From Candidatus Lokiarchaeota archaeon (GTDB lineage: Archaea; Asgardarchaeota; Thorarchaeia; Thorarchaeales; Thorarchaeaceae): a stretch of DNA of 58,968 nucleotides. The notes beneath the pieces are model-generated. The model saw only the letters and a program-made list of their open reading frames with translations, did no database searches and had not been told where the DNA came from. The DNA lies in assembly GCA_014730275.1 (NCBI GenBank), contig WJIL01000071.1, forward strand, positions 1-58,968. The letters run 5' to 3'. How positions within the stretch are numbered: the stretch's first letter is position 1; the number at the start of each line of letters is the position of its first letter. Made by a program: the position numbers and the translations under genes. Of this stretch, positions 527 to 9,249 are shown piece by piece.

Positions 527-1243
527 ATGATGAATCCACGCGTGACTCAACTTATTGGTATGGTGCTCGTAATCTTGTCTGCTGCTATGACCATAGTGGT
601 TTGGAACGCAACTCTAGCCATAGAGGGTGTTTTTACTACAGTACTAGCTTCTGGATTGATTGTCTGGGGTATCCTGGCATTCCCGGAACTGGCAATTGGT
701 CTGTGGCTTATTGCAAAAGGGTCACGAAGTGCAAAGGTTGGGAAGATTCAGGATAGATTGGCTAGTCTTGTTCGGACCGAGGGAAGAATCAGCGTGGATG
801 AAGCTGCTCGCAGTCTTGAGTCCAATCGTCTGACTGTGGTTGAAGCTGCTGAAGAAATGGCAAAGAAGAAACTTCCATTAGTCTATCTGGACGTCAGTTC
901 AAACGAGATTGTTGACCCTCGTTCAGTAGAACTCGAAGAAAGCATTCTCCACCTTCTTCACGCAAGGCGGAGAATGTCATTTGCTGAAATTTCTGAAGTC
1001 ACAGAAGCAAATAGGGAACAGGTAGTTCAAGCATTGAACGAATTATCAAAATCTGGAAACTTCAGGGGTACCGTGGACACGGGTTCCAATGTTGTCTACA
1101 CCCAAGAAGCTGTTACGGAACTACCTCGAGCACTTACATTCTGTACACACTGTGGGGGTAAACTGCCAGAACCAGTCCTTCCTGGAGAAGAGGAGGAATG
1201 TCCTTACTGTGGGCGAATGAATGTCAATCGGCTTGATGTTTAA
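527..1243 (+). CDS. Membrane-anchored winged-helix and zinc-ribbon protein
   Basis: A 238-residue protein. Two hydrophobic helices occupy about residues 8-33 and 37-62, putting the rest in the cytosol. Two winged-helix-like units follow, at about 75-130 and 138-195, each with the A/E-rich helix-turn-helix pattern seen in PCI or wHTH modules. A C-terminal zinc ribbon holds CTHC and CPYC pairs about 15 residues apart. The layout suggests a membrane-tethered regulator or adaptor, but this is inference. An alternative ATG lies one codon downstream (530). Its TAA overlaps the stop of the convergent gene in TTAA (1240-1243). Confidence 0.75.
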   Translation: MMNPRVTQLIGMVLVILSAAMTIVVWNATLAIEGVFTTVLASGLIVWGILAFPELAIGLWLIAKGSRSAKVGKIQDRLASLVRTEGRISVDEAARSLESNRLTVVEAAEEMAKKKLPLVYLDVSSNEIVDPRSVELEESILHLLHARRRMSFAEISEVTEANREQVVQALNELSKSGNFRGTVDTGSNVVYTQEAVTELPRALTFCTHCGGKLPEPVLPGEEEECPYCGRMNVNRLDV

Positions 1244-2445
1244 CATTCATGTGCTTCAGAATGAAATGGGCTATCACTCAGACGTTCACGGTGAATCTTC
1301 CATTTCTGGGTGATTTCGCCTTTTTCCGACACATGATAGTGATTGAACAAGTTTGCTACAAGACAGGAGTGATTTGGAACGATTCTGATTTTGGAACCCG
1401 GTTCTAGACTCTGCAGTGCTGAGCCTTTCTGAAGGCGAATTTTGCCATGCTCTTGGGATAAGCTTTGTATTGATGCTTTGTCATCTAACTCACTCTTTTC
1501 ATAGCTTTCAATGACTTTCCCATATCCACATTCAGGAGCTACATGAACAGGACCCTGGTCCTTTGAGAGGGCCGTGGCCCCCGCGTCAACAACCACTCTT
1601 CCCTCGTAGACCCCGATTATGGTGGACATTACGCTAAGGGCGATATCGTTAATGTCGCAAGAGCCCAATATGGCTTGGGTGTAATCGAAGAAAACGTAAT
1701 TTCCCGGACGTATTTCTGTAATGCCGTCTTTGATTTCCCGCGTCTGAGTCATTGTTGGCGTTGAACCAATGCTCACAGTTTTTGGTTTAAGATAATGTCT
1801 AGCTTTTCCAAGATCGCGCGCAAATCGAATCATGACATCCTGTTCTTTCTTCGCGATTCTCTGAATCTCTGAAGCGGACATGGCGCCATATGAGTGACCT
1901 CCATGGGTCAGAATTCCTTCGAATACTAGATTATCTGCATTGTCGATGCTTTCTGCAACTCTAATACTCTCTGGACGCGATGGATCAACACCACAGCGGT
2001 GATATCCACAATCGACCTTCAAAAGCACCTTCAGAGTTATCTTTTCTTCTCTGGCCGCTTTTTGTAACCTTTTTACAGTTTGAGGATGATCAACAAGAAG
2101 ATTCAGCGAAACTTTCTTCGCGAGTTTGATTGATTCTTTCTCTTTTCCTAGAACAAATGGTTTGGCGAGTGTCAAATCATCAAAGCCAGCTTCAGCAAAT
2201 GCTAGTGCCTCACCCAGCGTTGCTACTGTGATTCCGTTACATCCGTACTTCTTCTGTATCCTCGCAATCTCGGAACATTTGTGAGTTTTCACATGTGGGC
2301 GCAAATTGACCCCATTCTTAGTAGCGAATTCTGCCATACTCGCGATATTCCGTTCTACTCGCTCCAAATCAACTACTGCTGCTGGTGTTAGAACATCATG
2401 AATATGCATGGATTTTGTTCTCCATTCGACTTGTTCATAGTTCAA
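1240..2445 (-). CDS. PLP-dependent D-serine dehydratase-like / D-threonine aldolase-like protein
   Basis: A 401-residue member of the alanine-racemase-fold group that includes eukaryotic-type D-serine dehydratase (DSD) and D-threonine aldolase. The N-terminal barrel carries the PLP-lysine motif HVKTHK (Lys about 53). Near residue 359 the motif PNHSC matches the His-x-Cys metal site of the DSD-like C-terminal domain. The likely reaction is elimination or retro-aldol cleavage of a D- or 3-hydroxy amino acid; the exact substrate is unknown. It starts with TTG inside the TGA of the radical SAM gene (TTGA overlap), so the two are translationally coupled. Whether it acts in the same pathway as that enzyme is open. 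Confidence 0.85.
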   Translation of the reverse strand: MNYEQVEWRTKSMHIHDVLTPAAVVDLERVERNIASMAEFATKNGVNLRPHVKTHKCSEIARIQKKYGCNGITVATLGEALAFAEAGFDDLTLAKPFVLGKEKESIKLAKKVSLNLLVDHPQTVKRLQKAAREEKITLKVLLKVDCGYHRCGVDPSRPESIRVAESIDNADNLVFEGILTHGGHSYGAMSASEIQRIAKKEQDVMIRFARDLGKARHYLKPKTVSIGSTPTMTQTREIKDGITEIRPGNYVFFDYTQAILGSCDINDIALSVMSTIIGVYEGRVVVDAGATALSKDQGPVHVAPECGYGKVIESYEKSELDDKASIQSLSQEHGKIRLQKGSALQSLEPGSKIRIVPNHSCLVANLFNHYHVSEKGEITQKWKIHRERLSDSPFHSEAHEC

Positions 2446-3884
2446 GTGATTCCGTGCTGATCCCCTTTGATTCGTCGTCTCAGTTTCAATCTCATCTCGT
2501 CAATCTTCTTTGAAACTCTGTTCTTCTCGGGCCAGAAAGGCTTGATTTCATCAAACCCCATAACATCGAAATATAGTGGACATGCCCCATAACAATACTG
2601 GAAATACTCACAAGACTTGCAGCCCTCTGGGGCAAATTCTTTTTCCCTCCAGAATTTTGCGGCTCTACTGTACCAGACTTCTTCAAAGCCATCATGAAGC
2701 AAATCACCCACCGGTTCACTGAAGCTCGAACAAGGCAGGAGATTGCCTTCTGCATCAACCGAGAGCAACCCCTCACAACATGCACAATGCTTGGCGCCCA
2801 GACCATGAGCGATGGGGTTGAAAAGGCATACGGGGGTTGGGGCATACCAGACAAACTCAATACCCTTCTTCTTGGCTCTCTTCTGTACCTTCTCTACTAT
2901 TTCCCCGATTTCCGAGAAAGTTATTTGCAGTTCATCACGGAGCTTGGCAGCTGAGCCAGTATAAATGACCATGTTCATCGAAAAATAGGTGAGGCCCAAT
3001 TCTTCAGCATGGAAATCCACCAGATTTTCTAAATCATGGACATTGAGCTTACAAATGGTTGTGTTGCAATGCGTATAGATGTCCGTCTCTCTTAGATTCC
3101 TAATTCCCTGCACTGTTTCCTCAAATGCTCCTGGAACCCCAACGATAGAGTCGTGAACTTCCGCATTCGACCCTTCTATGGATACCTGTGCGCTATGAAG
3201 TCCCGCTTCAACCAACTGTTCAACATACTGGCTGTCGCCGCATTTCCGCCCGTTCGTGATTAGATTCACTCTAAGTCCTTTCTTACGAGCATGTTGAATC
3301 AGTTCGAAAAGATCTGGTCTGAGTGTTGGTTCTCCCCCTGTAAATGAAAGACTTGGAACCTTTGCATCATCTACAATGATATCGATGACACGTTTGATTT
3401 CTTCAGTACTCATTTCGCCTGATTCCCGATAAGGAGAATATGCATAACAGAACTTGCACTTGTTGTTACAGCGGTATGTGACGGCTATTTCACTAAGCAC
3501 GGGGAATTTGGTCTCACCGTGCCCAAAGGGGACAATTTTCGCTGTACTGTATGTGTAAATGTTCTGGTTACCGCTTACCATTTCTCGAAGGTCGGTCACA
3601 AAATCTGCTAAATCGTTCAATACTTGCTGCCTTTCTGCACTCACATTCTTGATGAAGTAGTCTACAACGAATTTTGGGTCTTTTCCATCTAGGAGCATTT
3701 TCAGCATCTTCACGCCTGTCTGATTCAAATTCATTACCTTGTTGGGGCGTAGAATGAGAAGTTGGTCTTCTTCACGGACGTAGAAGTATTCACTAACCTC
3801 ACTCATGAATTTCGGAACCCATTGTAGATCCTCAAGCGTGTAAGCATATCCTTGACTGGTCATCAATGAGATACCCTGGAGCAT
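2442..3884 (-). CDS. Radical SAM/SPASM protein with N-terminal PqqD-like domain
   Basis: A 480-residue enzyme. Residues about 32-105 resemble PqqD, the peptide-binding RRE fold of RiPP pathways (LRPNKVMNLNQTG, then a helical bundle). The radical SAM core has C139-x3-C143-x2-C146 followed by Tyr, and GGEP at 183-186. The C-terminal SPASM region is rich in paired cysteines (CACC, CKSC and CYGAC groups), expected to hold auxiliary iron-sulfur clusters. Relatives such as PqqE and sactipeptide maturases modify peptide side chains. No short precursor peptide is visible next to it. The Cys/His-tailed protein encoded divergently 0.8 kb away is a candidate substrate (inference). Start could also be ATG 3863. 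Confidence 0.9.
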   Translation of the reverse strand: MLQGISLMTSQGYAYTLEDLQWVPKFMSEVSEYFYVREEDQLLILRPNKVMNLNQTGVKMLKMLLDGKDPKFVVDYFIKNVSAERQQVLNDLADFVTDLREMVSGNQNIYTYSTAKIVPFGHGETKFPVLSEIAVTYRCNNKCKFCYAYSPYRESGEMSTEEIKRVIDIIVDDAKVPSLSFTGGEPTLRPDLFELIQHARKKGLRVNLITNGRKCGDSQYVEQLVEAGLHSAQVSIEGSNAEVHDSIVGVPGAFEETVQGIRNLRETDIYTHCNTTICKLNVHDLENLVDFHAEELGLTYFSMNMVIYTGSAAKLRDELQITFSEIGEIVEKVQKRAKKKGIEFVWYAPTPVCLFNPIAHGLGAKHCACCEGLLSVDAEGNLLPCSSFSEPVGDLLHDGFEEVWYSRAAKFWREKEFAPEGCKSCEYFQYCYGACPLYFDVMGFDEIKPFWPEKNRVSKKIDEMRLKLRRRIKGDQHGIT

Positions 3885-3969
3885 CGACTTAAGAGTATTG
3901 GAGAAGACAAAGGCGATACGGCCGAAAACGCTATCTAGCTATTTTCCACCAGAGTGGTGAGGAAGATAG

Positions 3970-4371
3970 GTGTTTGATATGAGCAAAAAGACGACCTTGC
4001 CCTATGGCGAAGTGAAGGATAACAAGTTGATTATGGAATTCTCAGCATTTGATATGGATTTGCCTGTTATTGCGGCTGGAATCAGGGAGAGATCGGATGT
4101 GCTGCGAGAAATCGGCGTTATTTTTTCAGGCTTTGGAACCGAAGTCCCAGAGGAGCTTTCTAGACAGTCTCCAGCCAAAATCAGAGCCTTCTTTGAATAC
4201 GTAGGTCAGGGTAATGACGTACAGACTATTCTGAAGCGAGCATATCACCTTGTCTGGGGAGGGATGATTCAGGAGTTTCCTGATTTGGTGGATTGGGCTG
4301 AAGCAAAAGCAGACTTGTCGAGTCTGACATTTGCACAAGCGGAAATCCTGCGAGCTAGAAGAAGGGAATGA
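3970..4371 (+). CDS. Hypothetical protein, first gene of the divergent HSAC-tail operon
   Basis: A 133-residue soluble protein with no recognised family. The start is GTG at 3970, with GAGGA (3959-3963) 6 nt upstream; ATG 3979 is an alternative with poorer spacing. The first third is beta-like, while residues 60-130 look helical and contain an aromatic patch (FFEYVG, HLVWGG) and a basic end (RARRRE). It is followed after 15 nt by a second small gene and then by the HSAC-tailed membrane protein, so the three are probably co-transcribed. Its start is 85 nt from the divergent radical SAM gene, suggesting shared regulation. Function unknown. Confidence 0.65.
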   Translation: MFDMSKKTTLPYGEVKDNKLIMEFSAFDMDLPVIAAGIRERSDVLREIGVIFSGFGTEVPEELSRQSPAKIRAFFEYVGQGNDVQTILKRAYHLVWGGMIQEFPDLVDWAEAKADLSSLTFAQAEILRARRRE

Positions 4372-4386
4372 GAGAGGCACAAAAGG

Positions 4387-4713
4387 ATGCCTTCTGTCGA
4401 GATATCGTCAGTCATTTACGATCTGCTTGCAAACAGTATTGAACGGTCAGATGTATTTGAAGATGTGGACTCAACTGTGGAACAGGTGCTAAAGGGTTTT
4501 CTAGCAAAGCGAGACCTGTTCGGGCGTATGCATGCTCCATTTTCAACAATACTGATGAATTGTGTGGATGATTTGGTGGCTCTTCGGAAGCTGCTTGAGG
4601 GAGTGGATTGGCAAAGTAGAAGCAAACCAATCGAGGAAGCCACTGCCCGCCTGAAAGAAGCGGAAGACACCCTGCGTGAACAAGCCATAGAGTTGAATGA
4701 GGAGTACAAGTAA
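4387..4713 (+). CDS. Small helical hypothetical protein (108 aa)
   Basis: A 108-residue, mostly helical protein. The second half (about residues 70-108) is rich in Glu, Lys, Arg and Ala with a heptad-like pattern, consistent with a short coiled coil. It has no signal peptide, no membrane helix and no known motif. Its TAA is at 4711-4713, directly before the GGAGG that serves the next gene, which fits an operon with the HSAC-tail membrane protein. It could be a chaperone or scaffold for that protein, but nothing in the sequence proves it. Confidence 0.65.
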   Translation: MPSVEISSVIYDLLANSIERSDVFEDVDSTVEQVLKGFLAKRDLFGRMHAPFSTILMNCVDDLVALRKLLEGVDWQSRSKPIEEATARLKEAEDTLREQAIELNEEYK

Positions 4714-4729
4714 GGAGGATAGACACGCT

Positions 4730-6904
4730 TTGAGAATGAGTTCCAAGTGCCTAGTTTTTGTTGTTCTTTTGACAGTCATCTTGTCACCGGCAGTTAGTAC
4801 AGCTGGAAAACCAGCACAGGATACTGAAGTCAACATTGATGAAATATTGGTTGACGTTTTCGTGCTTCCAAATGGCCGAATCAACGTCACCTATTTTATG
4901 ACCTTTTCTGTGATAAGCGGTTCCATTGGTGGTTTCGATTTTTATGGCATTGAGGAATCCAATTATTATGACCAAGGGCGGGCGTATATCGAATATCAAG
5001 GGGAAACATACCCACTCGTTGTTACCCCGGTCTCAGAAGGATACAAGCTTGATTGGACACCACGAACACAAGAAGGTGAGTCTGTTACCGTTGTGTTCGG
5101 TTACGTGAGTACTGAACGGGTGATCGAACAAACCACCGCTACCCTTGAACTCGAGGGATCAGGGGAAGAAGTAACGTCTGACTTTGGAGTATTTAATTGG
5201 GCACCTGTTCAATGGAGCCTTCCAGTTGATTATGAGAATGTACGGGTAATCTATCCGATTACCATGAATTCTTCGTGGATTGAAACTGGGGGTGGCATTA
5301 CACCGGACGGAGCAGATTATGCTGGTTATGTGGAAGATTACAGGCAACAGATTGAAGCTTCTGGTGGTGCCGCAAGGGATTTCGACGAGGTAAATCTCCT
5401 CGCTTATCCATCTGATTCCTCCCCCCCGCACCGAAATTTCAGTGTCAGTCTGGAGTCTTCTGGTTTATTAGCTCAGGATCATTTTCGAGTATTCCACTAT
5501 ACAAACTGGAGCTTCTATGCACCATACTTGATGCCTGGTCAACTTGGAATTAATGTGGAACAGAATATCAATGTGGAAGGCGGACAGAATTTCGAGCTCC
5601 CAATAGATATATACAATATTGGCGATCAAGCATTGCAAGGTGTAACAGTTACCATATCTCTGTCAGAGAACCTCACTTTGGTTGATGGCGCGGGTTCAGA
5701 GTATATTGGCAGCTTGGTAGGTGGAGAGAGCGTACATCTGGTTTATACAATCAATGCGGAGAATGTACCTGCTATTCTAACAGTAACATTCCAAATTACC
5801 GCAACGAATCTCAATGAGACGGATTGGGTAACCAGTACCGCCAATATCTATGTACAAGAGTCTGTGCCCCCTCTAATCGACCCTGATATAGCAGCAGTAA
5901 TTGGAATATTTGGCGGTGGCTCGCTAGTTCTATTTGGTTTGGCTTTTTACGGATACAAGACAGCTACCGCTAGCTATGGTGCGAAATGGGATGCTGACGA
6001 AACAACAACGGTCGCCTATGAATCACCTGAGATTACCATTGAGACTTTTGGTGAACCCGGAACTGTAGCTGAACTGGATCCTATCGAGTCGGCTTTCTTC
6101 GTGAACAGACGACGTCAAGAACTCGTCACTATGATTATGATGTCATGCGTACGGAAAGGTGTCATCAGGATTATCTCAGATGAGCCGTTGAGACTCAGCA
6201 GAACTGGCATCAAGTTCGAAGACCTGACCTACTATGAGAAAATGTTCGTCGAGGCTATCGAGGACAATGAGCTGGACCCCGAAAAAGTAGATGCTATGAT
6301 AGACGAGTTAGCTGACAGGGTGCAGAAGAAATCGTGGGATGCGGATTTTGAAGCAACAAAAGAAGCCCATGAAGAGCGAGTGAACGGTGCATGGGAGGAA
6401 TTGGAATCACAGCCTACTGTGTCTGGACGGACGGATTATTATTTCGATGGCACCTATAGAGATCATGGTTGGTCATGGTACTGGATATATATGAACAAGC
6501 GCCATGATGATCTTCCTGATGCTGTCTCTCCAACTCCAGGTGATACTACTACACCTCAAATACCTGCATGGTTCCGTGATGTTTCTGATGCAACAGGACA
6601 CACCATAACTCAGATTGCCGAGGGTGCAGCAGCAATCGCTGAGACGACCGGAGAGATTATGACCAATGTCACTGAGACAATTGGAGATATCATGAAGAAT
6701 GTTGGTTCTATCATTACAGAGCCTCTGAGACCGATTGTGGAAGGTACCAGTCGCTGTGTGTCACACGATGCTTGCCACTCTGCGTGCGTATCCCATGATG
6801 CGTGTCATTCAGCTTGCCATTCAGCATGTCATAGTGCATGTGTCTGCCACTCCGCCTGTCATAGTGCTTGTCACTCAGCTTGTGTATCCGGTGGGTTCAG
6901 ATAG
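4730..6904 (+). CDS. DUF2207-like membrane protein with C-terminal HSAC-repeat tail
   Basis: About 724 residues from TTG 4730, which has GGAGG (4714-4718) 11 nt upstream; an in-frame ATG at 4697 lies inside the previous gene and ATG 4736 is an alternative. A signal peptide (VFVVLLTVILSP, cut near STAGK) is followed by an extracellular beta-rich region resembling DUF2207, a membrane helix at about 387-411, and a cytosolic part with a small alpha/beta domain (DPIESAFFVNRRRQE). The last ~49 residues, from about Cys676, form a tail with eleven Cys and nine His, including seven HSAC units, ending SGGFR. The tail should face the cytosol. It could bind metal or be modified by the nearby radical SAM enzyme. 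The DUF2207 assignment is moderate. Confidence 0.8.
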   Translation: MRMSSKCLVFVVLLTVILSPAVSTAGKPAQDTEVNIDEILVDVFVLPNGRINVTYFMTFSVISGSIGGFDFYGIEESNYYDQGRAYIEYQGETYPLVVTPVSEGYKLDWTPRTQEGESVTVVFGYVSTERVIEQTTATLELEGSGEEVTSDFGVFNWAPVQWSLPVDYENVRVIYPITMNSSWIETGGGITPDGADYAGYVEDYRQQIEASGGAARDFDEVNLLAYPSDSSPPHRNFSVSLESSGLLAQDHFRVFHYTNWSFYAPYLMPGQLGINVEQNINVEGGQNFELPIDIYNIGDQALQGVTVTISLSENLTLVDGAGSEYIGSLVGGESVHLVYTINAENVPAILTVTFQITATNLNETDWVTSTANIYVQESVPPLIDPDIAAVIGIFGGGSLVLFGLAFYGYKTATASYGAKWDADETTTVAYESPEITIETFGEPGTVAELDPIESAFFVNRRRQELVTMIMMSCVRKGVIRIISDEPLRLSRTGIKFEDLTYYEKMFVEAIEDNELDPEKVDAMIDELADRVQKKSWDADFEATKEAHEERVNGAWEELESQPTVSGRTDYYFDGTYRDHGWSWYWIYMNKRHDDLPDAVSPTPGDTTTPQIPAWFRDVSDATGHTITQIAEGAAAIAETTGEIMTNVTETIGDIMKNVGSIITEPLRPIVEGTSRCVSHDACHSACVSHDACHSACHSACHSACVCHSACHSACHSACVSGGFR
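6755..6883 (+). repeat. HSAC protein repeat tract (7 units plus 2 SHDAC units)
   Basis: The coding tract encodes CVSHDAC-HSAC, CVSHDAC-(HSAC)3 and VC-(HSAC)3 in succession. The seven HSAC units use different codons: His cac or cat, Ser tct, tca, agt or tcc, Ala gcg, gct, gca or gcc, Cys tgc or tgt. The switches between AGT and TCN for serine need more than one base change. The protein pattern is therefore kept while the DNA has diverged, which argues for selection on the residues rather than a young DNA expansion. Confidence 0.9.
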
Positions 6905-7261
6905 GGGTAGCACGGAACGCGAAACACCTTTGGGGGAATCCACTGAATAGCGAAAATCTTTCGGCAAAGATTGATGAGATGCTCGGCATCCTTAGAAAAC
7001 CAATAAACCGTTGCATTCCCTATTCGTTGATACATGGCCATTCGGGGCTGCGTATTCGTCCTTCAGATTGTAAGAGAGGAATCTAATTGGATTGTTAACT
7101 CGCAGTCTATCCGACTAAAGGATTTTTCATGTTCCTGCTTATCGTGTGTTCAGCACTGATTCGCTCGTGCTATCAACTAATGACTCGATTGCTTGAAAGG
7201 ATATTACACTGAAACACTGATATGCCGGGTTCTACATCGTGCCAATGTCCAGTGAATCGAC
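6905..7261. other. Intergenic region without a convincing gene
   Basis: No supported coding frame on either strand. A perfect 7-bp stem (AATCTTT/AAAGATT, 6955-6972) with a 4-nt loop sits about 50 nt after the HSAC-tail gene. It lacks a T-run, so it is only a weak terminator candidate. The rest presumably holds the promoter of the MinD-like gene. Confidence 0.4.
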
Positions 7262-8071
7262 ATGAAATCACTAGCATTGCATAGCTACAAGGGTGGAACC
7301 GGAAGGACGACAATTAGCGCCAATATAGCTGCTCTTCTTGCGAAGGATGGCAATAATGTAGCTATTCTTGACATGGATTTCTGGTCACCAACGATTCATA
7401 CAATATTCCGAACAAAATCCAAGTCAGCATTTGTCCACGAGTATCTGTCTGGAGAAATTGACTACCACGAGCTGTTTACAGATTTAACATCAGCTTTTGA
7501 CCTACCTGGAAGACTATTAGTAGGAGTTGGGGACTCACGAATAGATGTGATTCGACAGAATCTAGAGCATGATCGAGAGTGGTATCAGAATGCCTTGGCA
7601 CGTCTTCTGTATCTTAAAGAGAAACTAAGCGATGAAGGAATTGATTACTTCATCATGGATTGCTCTCCAGGCATTCATTCATGCACCGTAAACGCCATTG
7701 TGGCCTGTGATTTGACATTGGTCTTATGTAGAGTAAACAACTTCGACATCGATGGAACTATTCAGCTCCGAGAAGGACTCTATAACCGTCTTGATAAAGA
7801 AACCACATTGCTCTTCAATATGGTTCCTTCACAGATGATGCAAAAATCACGCCTGTCTCAAGTGGAGGAAACAATTGAGGAGTCTTGTGGTCAAGATTCT
7901 GTGATTTCGGGATATCTGCAGTACTATCCTGAAATTCCTCTTGGAATGGGAGTTGAGATTCATGCTCTGACCCAGCCTAGTCTTGGATTTGTAACAGATT
8001 TGAAAATGGTGGTGAGTAGACTCTCCATAGTGGCCAACTATGCTACAAGTGCAATTGGTGAACAGATTTGA
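7262..8071 (+). CDS. MinD/ParA-like P-loop ATPase with KGGTGRTT motif
   Basis: A 269-residue member of the SIMIBI (MinD/ParA) class. The deviant Walker A is SYKGGTGRTT (residues 8-17): the signature lysine is present, but the P-loop lysine is arginine. A switch-like LDMDFWSP and a Walker B-like FIMDCSPG follow. The arginine variant occurs in a known subgroup of ParA-like proteins, so it need not mean loss of function, though hydrolysis may be altered. No C-terminal amphipathic membrane helix typical of MinD is obvious. Its TGA overlaps the TTG start of the next gene, a longin/winged-helix protein, so the two are probably functional partners. Confidence 0.88.
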   Translation: MKSLALHSYKGGTGRTTISANIAALLAKDGNNVAILDMDFWSPTIHTIFRTKSKSAFVHEYLSGEIDYHELFTDLTSAFDLPGRLLVGVGDSRIDVIRQNLEHDREWYQNALARLLYLKEKLSDEGIDYFIMDCSPGIHSCTVNAIVACDLTLVLCRVNNFDIDGTIQLREGLYNRLDKETTLLFNMVPSQMMQKSRLSQVEETIEESCGQDSVISGYLQYYPEIPLGMGVEIHALTQPSLGFVTDLKMVVSRLSIVANYATSAIGEQI

Positions 8072-8679
8072 TTCGAGCGGTCTTCATTTTGACCGAGGGC
8101 GGTATATTGCTTTACTCCAAAACTTTCGATTCAAGCGAAACTGACCCTTTTATGGTGAGTAGCTTCATGTCTGCAATATCAAGTTTCAGCAGAGAAGCAG
8201 TTGGTAATCAGCTTCAAGGAATCGAGGCTGATGACCGCTATATATTTCATTTCACTCAGAATCCTGTTACCGTCGTAGTACTGGCTGATCACAGAAGAGA
8301 AATTCCTGGCAGAACTCTTGAACAGATTGCACTGAGTTTCATCAGCAAATTCGCTGGAGATATTAGAAATGGAGATTACAACTCTGATCAATTCAGTGAG
8401 TTTGATGAAGCGCTTGAAGATATGCTTCCTAGAAAACTAACGATACATGATTCGCCTTCGAAAATTGACCCACTTGACGGTTTGAGCATTGTCGAATCAC
8501 CAACTGAATTGCAAAACGTGGCAAAACTTGTTTTGCGAGAAAACGAGATATCTCCAGAACAGGTGGCAAAGACACTTCGTGTCGACTTAGTTACCGCCAC
8601 AGAACAACTAGATAAGTTGGTTGAATTAGGAAAAATCCAGGTTCGAAATTCGGCTGATGGAACAGTCTATCATATTTAA
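8068..8679 (+). CDS. Longin-like domain protein with C-terminal winged helix
   Basis: A 203-residue protein starting at TTG inside the stop of the MinD-like gene (TTGA). Residues 1-115 have the strand pattern of longin/roadblock-type domains: IRAVFILTEGGILLYSK, then a helix, then YIFHF and VTVVVLAD strands and a long helix. Residues about 140-203 form a winged helix (ISPEQVAKTLRVD, then a recognition-like helix and KIQVRN wing). Longin domains are abundant in Asgard archaea, usually linked to small GTPases. The coupling here to a MinD-like ATPase suggests the pair senses or positions something. The domain calls are by eye. Confidence 0.65.
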   Translation: MIRAVFILTEGGILLYSKTFDSSETDPFMVSSFMSAISSFSREAVGNQLQGIEADDRYIFHFTQNPVTVVVLADHRREIPGRTLEQIALSFISKFAGDIRNGDYNSDQFSEFDEALEDMLPRKLTIHDSPSKIDPLDGLSIVESPTELQNVAKLVLRENEISPEQVAKTLRVDLVTATEQLDKLVELGKIQVRNSADGTVYHI

Positions 8680-8745: not shown

Positions 8746-9249
8746 ATGCCAGCAAGAAGGATTCTACTACTGGGCAATCCAAAACTGTATGCACAGTCCG
8801 ACCCCGTATCTAGGGAAGAACTCGGCGAAGTGAACGCGATTGTAGAAGACCTTCATGATACACTAATGGAGTTTAGAAATGAATGGGGGGCAGGTAGGGC
8901 AATTGCAGCACCACAAATTGGTGAATTCAAACGTACTGTCTACGTTAACATAGATGAACCTGTTGTATTGTTTAACCCGAAGATTGTGGATCGAAGCAAG
9001 GAAATGATTGAGCTATGGGATGACTGCATGTCATTTCCACATCTGCTGGTGAAAGTCAAGCGACATCGCAGAATCACGGTTGAGTATCGTGATACAGATT
9101 GGAAGCGAATCAGAGCGGAATACACAGATGATGAATCTGAGCTGCTCCAACATGAAATCGATCATCTAAACGGACTTCTTGCAACCCAGAGAGCATTAGA
9201 TTCCAAGTCTTTCGCTTTACGATCTCAACGGGACCTCTTACAACAATGA
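8746..9249 (+). CDS. Peptide deformylase-like metalloprotein
   Basis: A 167-residue protein matching the polypeptide deformylase fold. Motif 1 is IAAPQIG. Motif 2 is DDCMS instead of the usual EGCLS, keeping the metal-binding Cys. Motif 3 is HEIDH with both metal-binding His and the catalytic Glu. All catalytic residues are thus present. Deformylases remove formyl groups from bacterial N-termini; archaea generally start with unformylated Met, so the substrate here is unclear. No methionyl-tRNA formyltransferase is seen nearby. A bacterial origin by transfer is plausible. A TATA-like tttgtatatg lies about 40 nt upstream of the ATG. Confidence 0.85.
   Translation: MPARRILLLGNPKLYAQSDPVSREELGEVNAIVEDLHDTLMEFRNEWGAGRAIAAPQIGEFKRTVYVNIDEPVVLFNPKIVDRSKEMIELWDDCMSFPHLLVKVKRHRRITVEYRDTDWKRIRAEYTDDESELLQHEIDHLNGLLATQRALDSKSFALRSQRDLLQQ

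Follow-up and report, generated by a model that had tools for sequence, protein, structure and literature searches.

A candidate RRE-guided radical SAM system acting on Cys-rich cytosolic tails of membrane proteins in Asgard archaea and other prokaryotes

Organization of the locus

The window analysed here is a complete contig of an Asgard archaeal genome (G000:C71), 58,968 nucleotides in length, and the features of interest are collected in Table 1. The genes for two small proteins, SM1 and SM2, and for a membrane protein form one operon, which is divergent from the gene for a radical SAM enzyme; a PLP enzyme gene lies downstream of the latter. A sequence-only reading of this DNA had described a PqqD-bearing radical SAM/SPASM enzyme facing the operon, and the Pfam domains and motifs confirm this. 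The order radical SAM, SM1, (SM2), membrane protein is kept in nearly all loci that are sufficiently long; in one genome the enzyme lies about 6 kb off. No further conserved Cys-rich gene was seen in the operon, nor does the locus hold a gene for a short conserved Cys-rich peptide, so that it lacks the short precursor with removable leader of a classical RiPP system. A gene for a membrane/zinc-ribbon protein (527-1243) flanks the cassette and is conserved in most loci of family f1. Beyond the membrane protein, on its other side, lie genes for a MinD/ParA-like ATPase (7262-8071), for a protein resembling a Longin domain, below the Pfam cut-off and with a possible winged-helix similarity at its C-terminus (8068-8679), and for a member of the peptide deformylase family (8746-9249; Pfam 2.8e-36), here in an archaeon.

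Table 1. Genes and features of the cassette, with positions in the window
Feature	Position	Strand	Remarks
PLP enzyme (D-threonine aldolase / D-serine dehydratase fold family)	1240..2445	-	accessory
Radical SAM/SPASM enzyme, N-terminal PqqD-like RRE	2442..3884	-	
SPASM auxiliary cluster region (C367, C385, C422, C425, C431, C435)	2580..2786	-	invariant Cys; Pfam SPASM
CX3CX2C radical SAM cluster motif (C139, C143, C146)	3447..3470	-	invariant, 24 aligned family members
PqqD/RRE domain, residues 44-101	3582..3755	-	Pfam PqqD; TfuB1 match
SM1, 130 aa	3979..4371	+	constant partner
SM2, 108 aa	4387..4713	+	detected in 10/20 loci
Membrane protein, 735 residues	4697..6904	+	true start probably 4730 or 4736
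Long predicted helix before tail, residues 624-683	6566..6745	+	low-confidence model
C-terminal tail rich in Cys and His (residues 687-735); region proposed as substrate (core)	6755..6901	+	

The two small orphan proteins noted in the sequence-only reading differ in how constant they are. SM1, a cytosolic protein without Cys, is present in all 20 informative loci, and its AlphaFold model (pLDDT 75) has no PDB match at E ≤ 0.001. SM2 has no Pfam match and is detectable in only half of these loci. By eye, its N-terminus resembles a ribbon-helix-helix DNA-binding motif. The PLP enzyme (domains Ala_racemase_N and D-ser_dehydrat, likely start at residue 13) had been read as coupled to the radical SAM enzyme. 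It is indeed adjacent and of the D-ser_dehydrat type, but we rejected it as a core component, as 7 of 17 informative loci lack it and none was detected at the CACA-type loci described below. Its presence in only 10 of the 17 makes it accessory or a frequent passenger, and dispensable.

The membrane protein and its tail

From its N-terminus, the membrane protein consists of a signal peptide, an ectodomain rich in beta structure (residues 44-387), one TM helix (396-424) and a cytosolic part made up of a winged-helix-like domain (462-570), the long predicted helix and the tail. This topology, with the ectodomain outside and the tail in the cytosol, is inferred from the signal peptide and the single TM helix. 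Judging from where its relatives begin, the protein more likely starts at 4730 or 4736 than at 4697. The earlier label of "DUF2207-like" is a fair description, but the DUF2207_C score of 13.8 bits stays below the Pfam gathering cut-off of 33, thus membership is not met and only a distant likeness remains. The protein has no NCBIfam match at E ≤ 1, hence no TIGR04222 domain, and the nine genes of the window that were scanned include no MNIO (DUF692) enzyme. The predicted helix at residues 624-683 has a pLDDT below 50 and lies within the stretch that hhalign aligned to the CA-tail proteins; we regard it as a candidate recognition (leader-like) segment, a role that is inferred. In Foldseek the predicted ectodomain (4826-5857) matches ribophorin I/Ost1 of the eukaryotic oligosaccharyltransferase (E 4e-10). 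The whole-chain TM-scores are low, and we take the match as a weak lead, though an interesting one in an Asgard archaeon.

The tail reads CVSHDACHSACVSHDACHSACHSACHSACVCHSACHSACHSACVSGGFR and holds 11 Cys and 9 His in 49 residues, which bears out the count in HSAC units made earlier. It is disordered in the predicted model (pLDDT about 30). The only place in the genome where the CHSACHSAC pattern occurs at DNA level is the membrane-protein gene, and a reversed-pattern control gave zero occurrences, so the tail is not a product of chance. Each genome bearing the tail has one such gene. The membrane protein was found in 24 of the first 59 relatives searched, all 24 in family f1, and wherever a match extends to the C-terminus, the protein closes with this tail, of which one copy is shorter by one repeat pair. 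Among 20 aligned homologues the mean pairwise identity is 98% in the tail versus 57% in the rest of the protein. At codons for an unchanged residue, the frequency of silent differences is 0.597 in the tail and 0.598 elsewhere. The tail is thus nearly invariant as protein while its codons differ silently as often as the background, which means that selection acts on its amino acids. The Ala and Ser of the tail are as invariant as its Cys and His, which argues that the core is chemically defined: mere binding of metal would tolerate variation at the positions between the Cys.

The radical SAM enzyme

Pfam recognizes a PqqD domain (27.6 bits against a cut-off of 23.4), a Radical_SAM domain (3.3e-29) and a SPASM domain (1.2e-5) in the enzyme. 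The SPASM cysteines, CX2CX5CX3C at residues 422-435, are invariant in the family alignment, as is the radical SAM motif. With motif, SPASM cysteines and RRE, the enzyme meets the tested criteria for an RRE-bearing radical SAM/SPASM peptide maturase. The solved structures closest to the family profile are SkfB, PqqE and SuiB, the match to SuiB spanning RRE, core and SPASM; the RRE protein TfuB1 (6jx3) is also matched (E 1.3e-6), and YydG is a far weaker match than these maturases. SkfB is a sactipeptide maturase that makes thioethers; PqqE and SuiB form C-C bonds.

The NCBIfam matches of the enzyme are all far below the family cut-offs, the best being AhbD with 157 bits against 500, so the enzyme belongs to no curated family. 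The NCBIfam equivalog level is not reached, and no NCBIfam or Pfam model covers the system. In a phylogenetic tree the HSAC-type enzymes form one clade with 100/100 support, the control SPASM enzymes form a separate one, and the deep root is weak (49/92). The enzyme of a second HSAC lineage (G108, see below) falls within the HSAC-type clade, thus the enzyme clade tracks the tail type.

Co-occurrence of tail and enzyme

The sequence-only reading could be checked by looking for tails in genomes without such an enzyme, and we did this in 228 Asgard genomes. With the enzyme family defined at E ≤ 1e-60 (75 genomes), tail and enzyme were found together in 66 genomes, the tail alone in 4, the enzyme alone in 9 and neither in 149; 66 of the 70 tail-bearing genomes therefore have the enzyme. 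The associated Fisher p of 4e-42 overstates the independence of the genomes, which share ancestry. CACA tails were found in 39 of the 228 genomes, CHSAC tails in 32 and both in one. For two of the four genomes with only a tail the tail gene lies at a contig end, and G024 shows the first residues of the enzyme. We rejected G022, another of the four, as a case of a tail without enzyme, as its ORF is a chimera across a run of N and is uninformative. The nine genomes with only the enzyme have no tail matching our patterns.

Co-occurrence also holds in two families, f9 and f28, whose enzyme and tail genes lie on different contigs, thus the association cannot be put down to linkage alone. The proposal that enzyme and tail form a protein-modification system is therefore supported by co-occurrence even when the two are unlinked. 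A conserved core in a ribosomal product that co-occurs with a maturase is itself a criterion for a RiPP system, and it is met.

Related tails in other archaea and bacteria

In another Asgard family a distant relative of the enzyme directly adjoins a membrane protein ending CACACACAGCACACAGGGR. The DNA of CACACAGGG was searched in 84,980 GTDB species without using the enzyme in the query, which gave at least 118 stretches, and 80 loci were examined. The (CA)n tail DNA occurs in at least ten phyla. The bacterial loci include Chloroflexota, Bacillota, Planctomycetota, Armatimonadota, Zixibacteria, Aminicenantes, Krumholzibacteria and others, and the archaeal ones Asgard, Bathyarchaeota, Thermoproteota, Thermoplasmatota and Methanocella. 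In the loci examined, the in-frame matches are mostly C-terminal and mostly end in GGGR. Two pattern matches, L110 (Kitasatospora) and L120 (Plautia symbiont), were discarded as chance, as they are not C-terminal membrane-protein tails and have no closely related enzyme.

These tails also allowed adjacency to be checked from DNA alone. Among the matches listed, 32 tails were flanked on either side by 1.5 kb or more, and 30 of these have a related radical SAM gene within 2.5 kb. One of the two exceptions is a Sigynarchaeon with the enzyme on another contig; the other, a Clostridia MAG (L162), has no enzyme beside the tail and no profile match elsewhere in its genome.

HSAC and (CA)n tails are related, the HSAC form being a single variant within a far larger family with (CA)n tails. 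The cytosolic domains that precede the two kinds of tail are homologous (hhalign probability 99.9, E 2.4e-35). A hybrid tail in family f26 (G133; L237, G133:C1:12000-29059, ORF 6143-7465) combines CHSAC repeats and CACACACAGGGW within a single protein, ending CHSACHDACHSACHSACVSCACACACAGGGW (also cited as …CHSACHSACVSCACACACAGGGW), with the enzyme near. In the second HSAC lineage (G108, family f21) the CHSAC tail closes with GGGH, and the enzyme is directly adjacent.

Several further features were seen in these loci. Bacillota tails (e.g. L104, L123 and L139) read CAHSSCACACACACAGGGRAGCSxKDFY, with a conserved extension past GGGR, and adjoin radical SAM enzymes of a clade of their own. The relationship of the Bacillota enzymes to the family is distant (about 280 bits versus 176-250 for the controls), and they may represent a separate recruitment. 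About 28 CACA loci of archaea and bacteria have a gene for a class I SAM methyltransferase next to the enzyme (for example L241:8796-9521, L245:8351-9115 and L239:5203-5988); the HSAC loci lack it. At Chloroflexota-type loci, among them L089, L114, L131, L144 and L146, the maturase is often accompanied by another radical SAM-like protein that consistently lacks CX3CX2C; this pseudo-enzyme is possibly a heterodimer partner of the maturase.

A proposed tail-modification system

We consider it likely that the locus encodes a membrane-anchored, RiPP-like system in which an RRE-guided maturase modifies the cytosolic tail of the membrane protein. The case for the tail as substrate is strong, whereas the modification and its chemistry are inferred. 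In this model the RRE would dock on the conserved cytosolic segment ahead of the tail, and the enzyme would then act on the Cys-rich repeat. The favoured chemistry, at slightly less than even odds, is cross-linking of Cys by thioethers to carbons of adjacent Ser, Ala or His, as in sactipeptides and ranthipeptides. The modified tail would stay on the membrane protein, and a part in handling metals or redox is a guess. In other archaea and bacteria the same enzyme family would serve the (CA)nGGGR tails.

Several points weigh against this model. It has no observed modified peptide behind it, the genomes compared share ancestry, nine Asgard genomes have the enzyme only, L162 has the tail only, and the Bacillota enzymes are distant. 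Moreover, thioethers are not an obvious fit for a strict alternation of Cys and Ala, so epimerisation or a different reaction is possible.

Three rival readings were weighed. In the first, which we hold to be unlikely, the tail is an unmodified metal-binding or cluster scaffold (Zn, Cu or Fe-S) and the enzyme has some other substrate in the pathway. The Cys/His-rich composition, the disordered model and the Gly/Ser-rich cytosolic tails normal for DUF2207 proteins (PMC10457818) speak for it; the invariant Ala and Ser, the RRE, the peptide maturases as nearest solved relatives and the lack of another conserved peptide substrate nearby speak against it. In the second, a less likely but serious alternative, the tail is the substrate but is epimerised (as by PoyD or YydG) or changed in another way without thioethers, with the methyltransferase of the CACA loci adding methyl groups. 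The alternating Cys-Ala, this methyltransferase and the D-amino-acid-type PLP enzyme beside some HSAC enzymes favour it. The better matches to SkfB, PqqE and SuiB, the HSAC repeats, which do not alternate by two, and the absence of the methyltransferase from HSAC loci disfavour it. In the third, which is very unlikely, the enzyme belongs to a heme pathway (AhbD/NirJ-like) and is beside the tail gene by accident. It rests on the AhbD score, which is far below the cut-off; those families are not known to have a fused RRE, and the conserved linkage and unlinked co-occurrence across phyla disfavour it.

On a broader reading, more likely than not in our view, there is a pan-prokaryotic class of RRE-bearing radical SAM/SPASM maturases for Cys-rich cytosolic tails of membrane proteins, with (CA)nGGGR as the usual tail, the CHSAC repeat as an Asgard variant, and the modified tails kept as lasting parts of the protein instead of being released. 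RiPP maturation is usually regarded as a source of small secreted peptides; a maturase family found in Asgard archaea, Bathyarchaeota, Thermoplasmatota, Chloroflexota, Bacillota and others and tied to large membrane proteins would mean that radical chemistry makes a permanent and widely conserved component of the cell envelope. Cultured bacteria with relatives are Ornatilinea apprima (L131, genes at 2118-6412, methyltransferase at 1361-2131) and, for the more distant enzyme, Gemmiger formicilis.

Relation to known systems

Among the papers accessible to the search, which include few from subscription journals, none describes this pairing of tail and radical SAM enzyme, so an earlier account may exist. 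The nearest published idea concerns TIGR04222 membrane proteins with Cys-rich C-terminal tails beside MNIO (DUF692) enzymes (PMC12452194). There too a low-complexity Cys-rich end of an integral membrane protein is the proposed substrate of a neighbouring metalloenzyme. The enzyme and the membrane protein are different ones, however, the tail is predicted to be periplasmic instead of cytosolic, the proteins come mostly from Actinomycetota, and the association is looser: of 1,372 genomes with the protein, 490 have no MNIO gene.

The maturases of sactipeptides, ranthipeptides, PQQ and streptide (SkfB, PqqE, SuiB) share the architecture of RRE (fused or as a partner), radical SAM and SPASM, and several target Cys or its neighbours. 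Their substrates are short precursor peptides, whereas the candidate here is the end of a 735-residue membrane protein, with the core at the C-terminus and no evident cleavage. The His-Xaa-Ser (Hxs) system likewise pairs a repeat protein with radical SAM enzymes, but the enzyme scores only 110 bits for HxsC against a cut-off of 268, and repeat, partners and membrane architecture are different, so we rejected membership. DUF2207 membrane proteins such as SMU.243 (PMC10457818) resemble the present one in their large extracellular N-terminus, TM segment and cytosolic C-terminus with a low-complexity tail; that tail is usually rich in Gly and Ser, and we know of no maturase for it.
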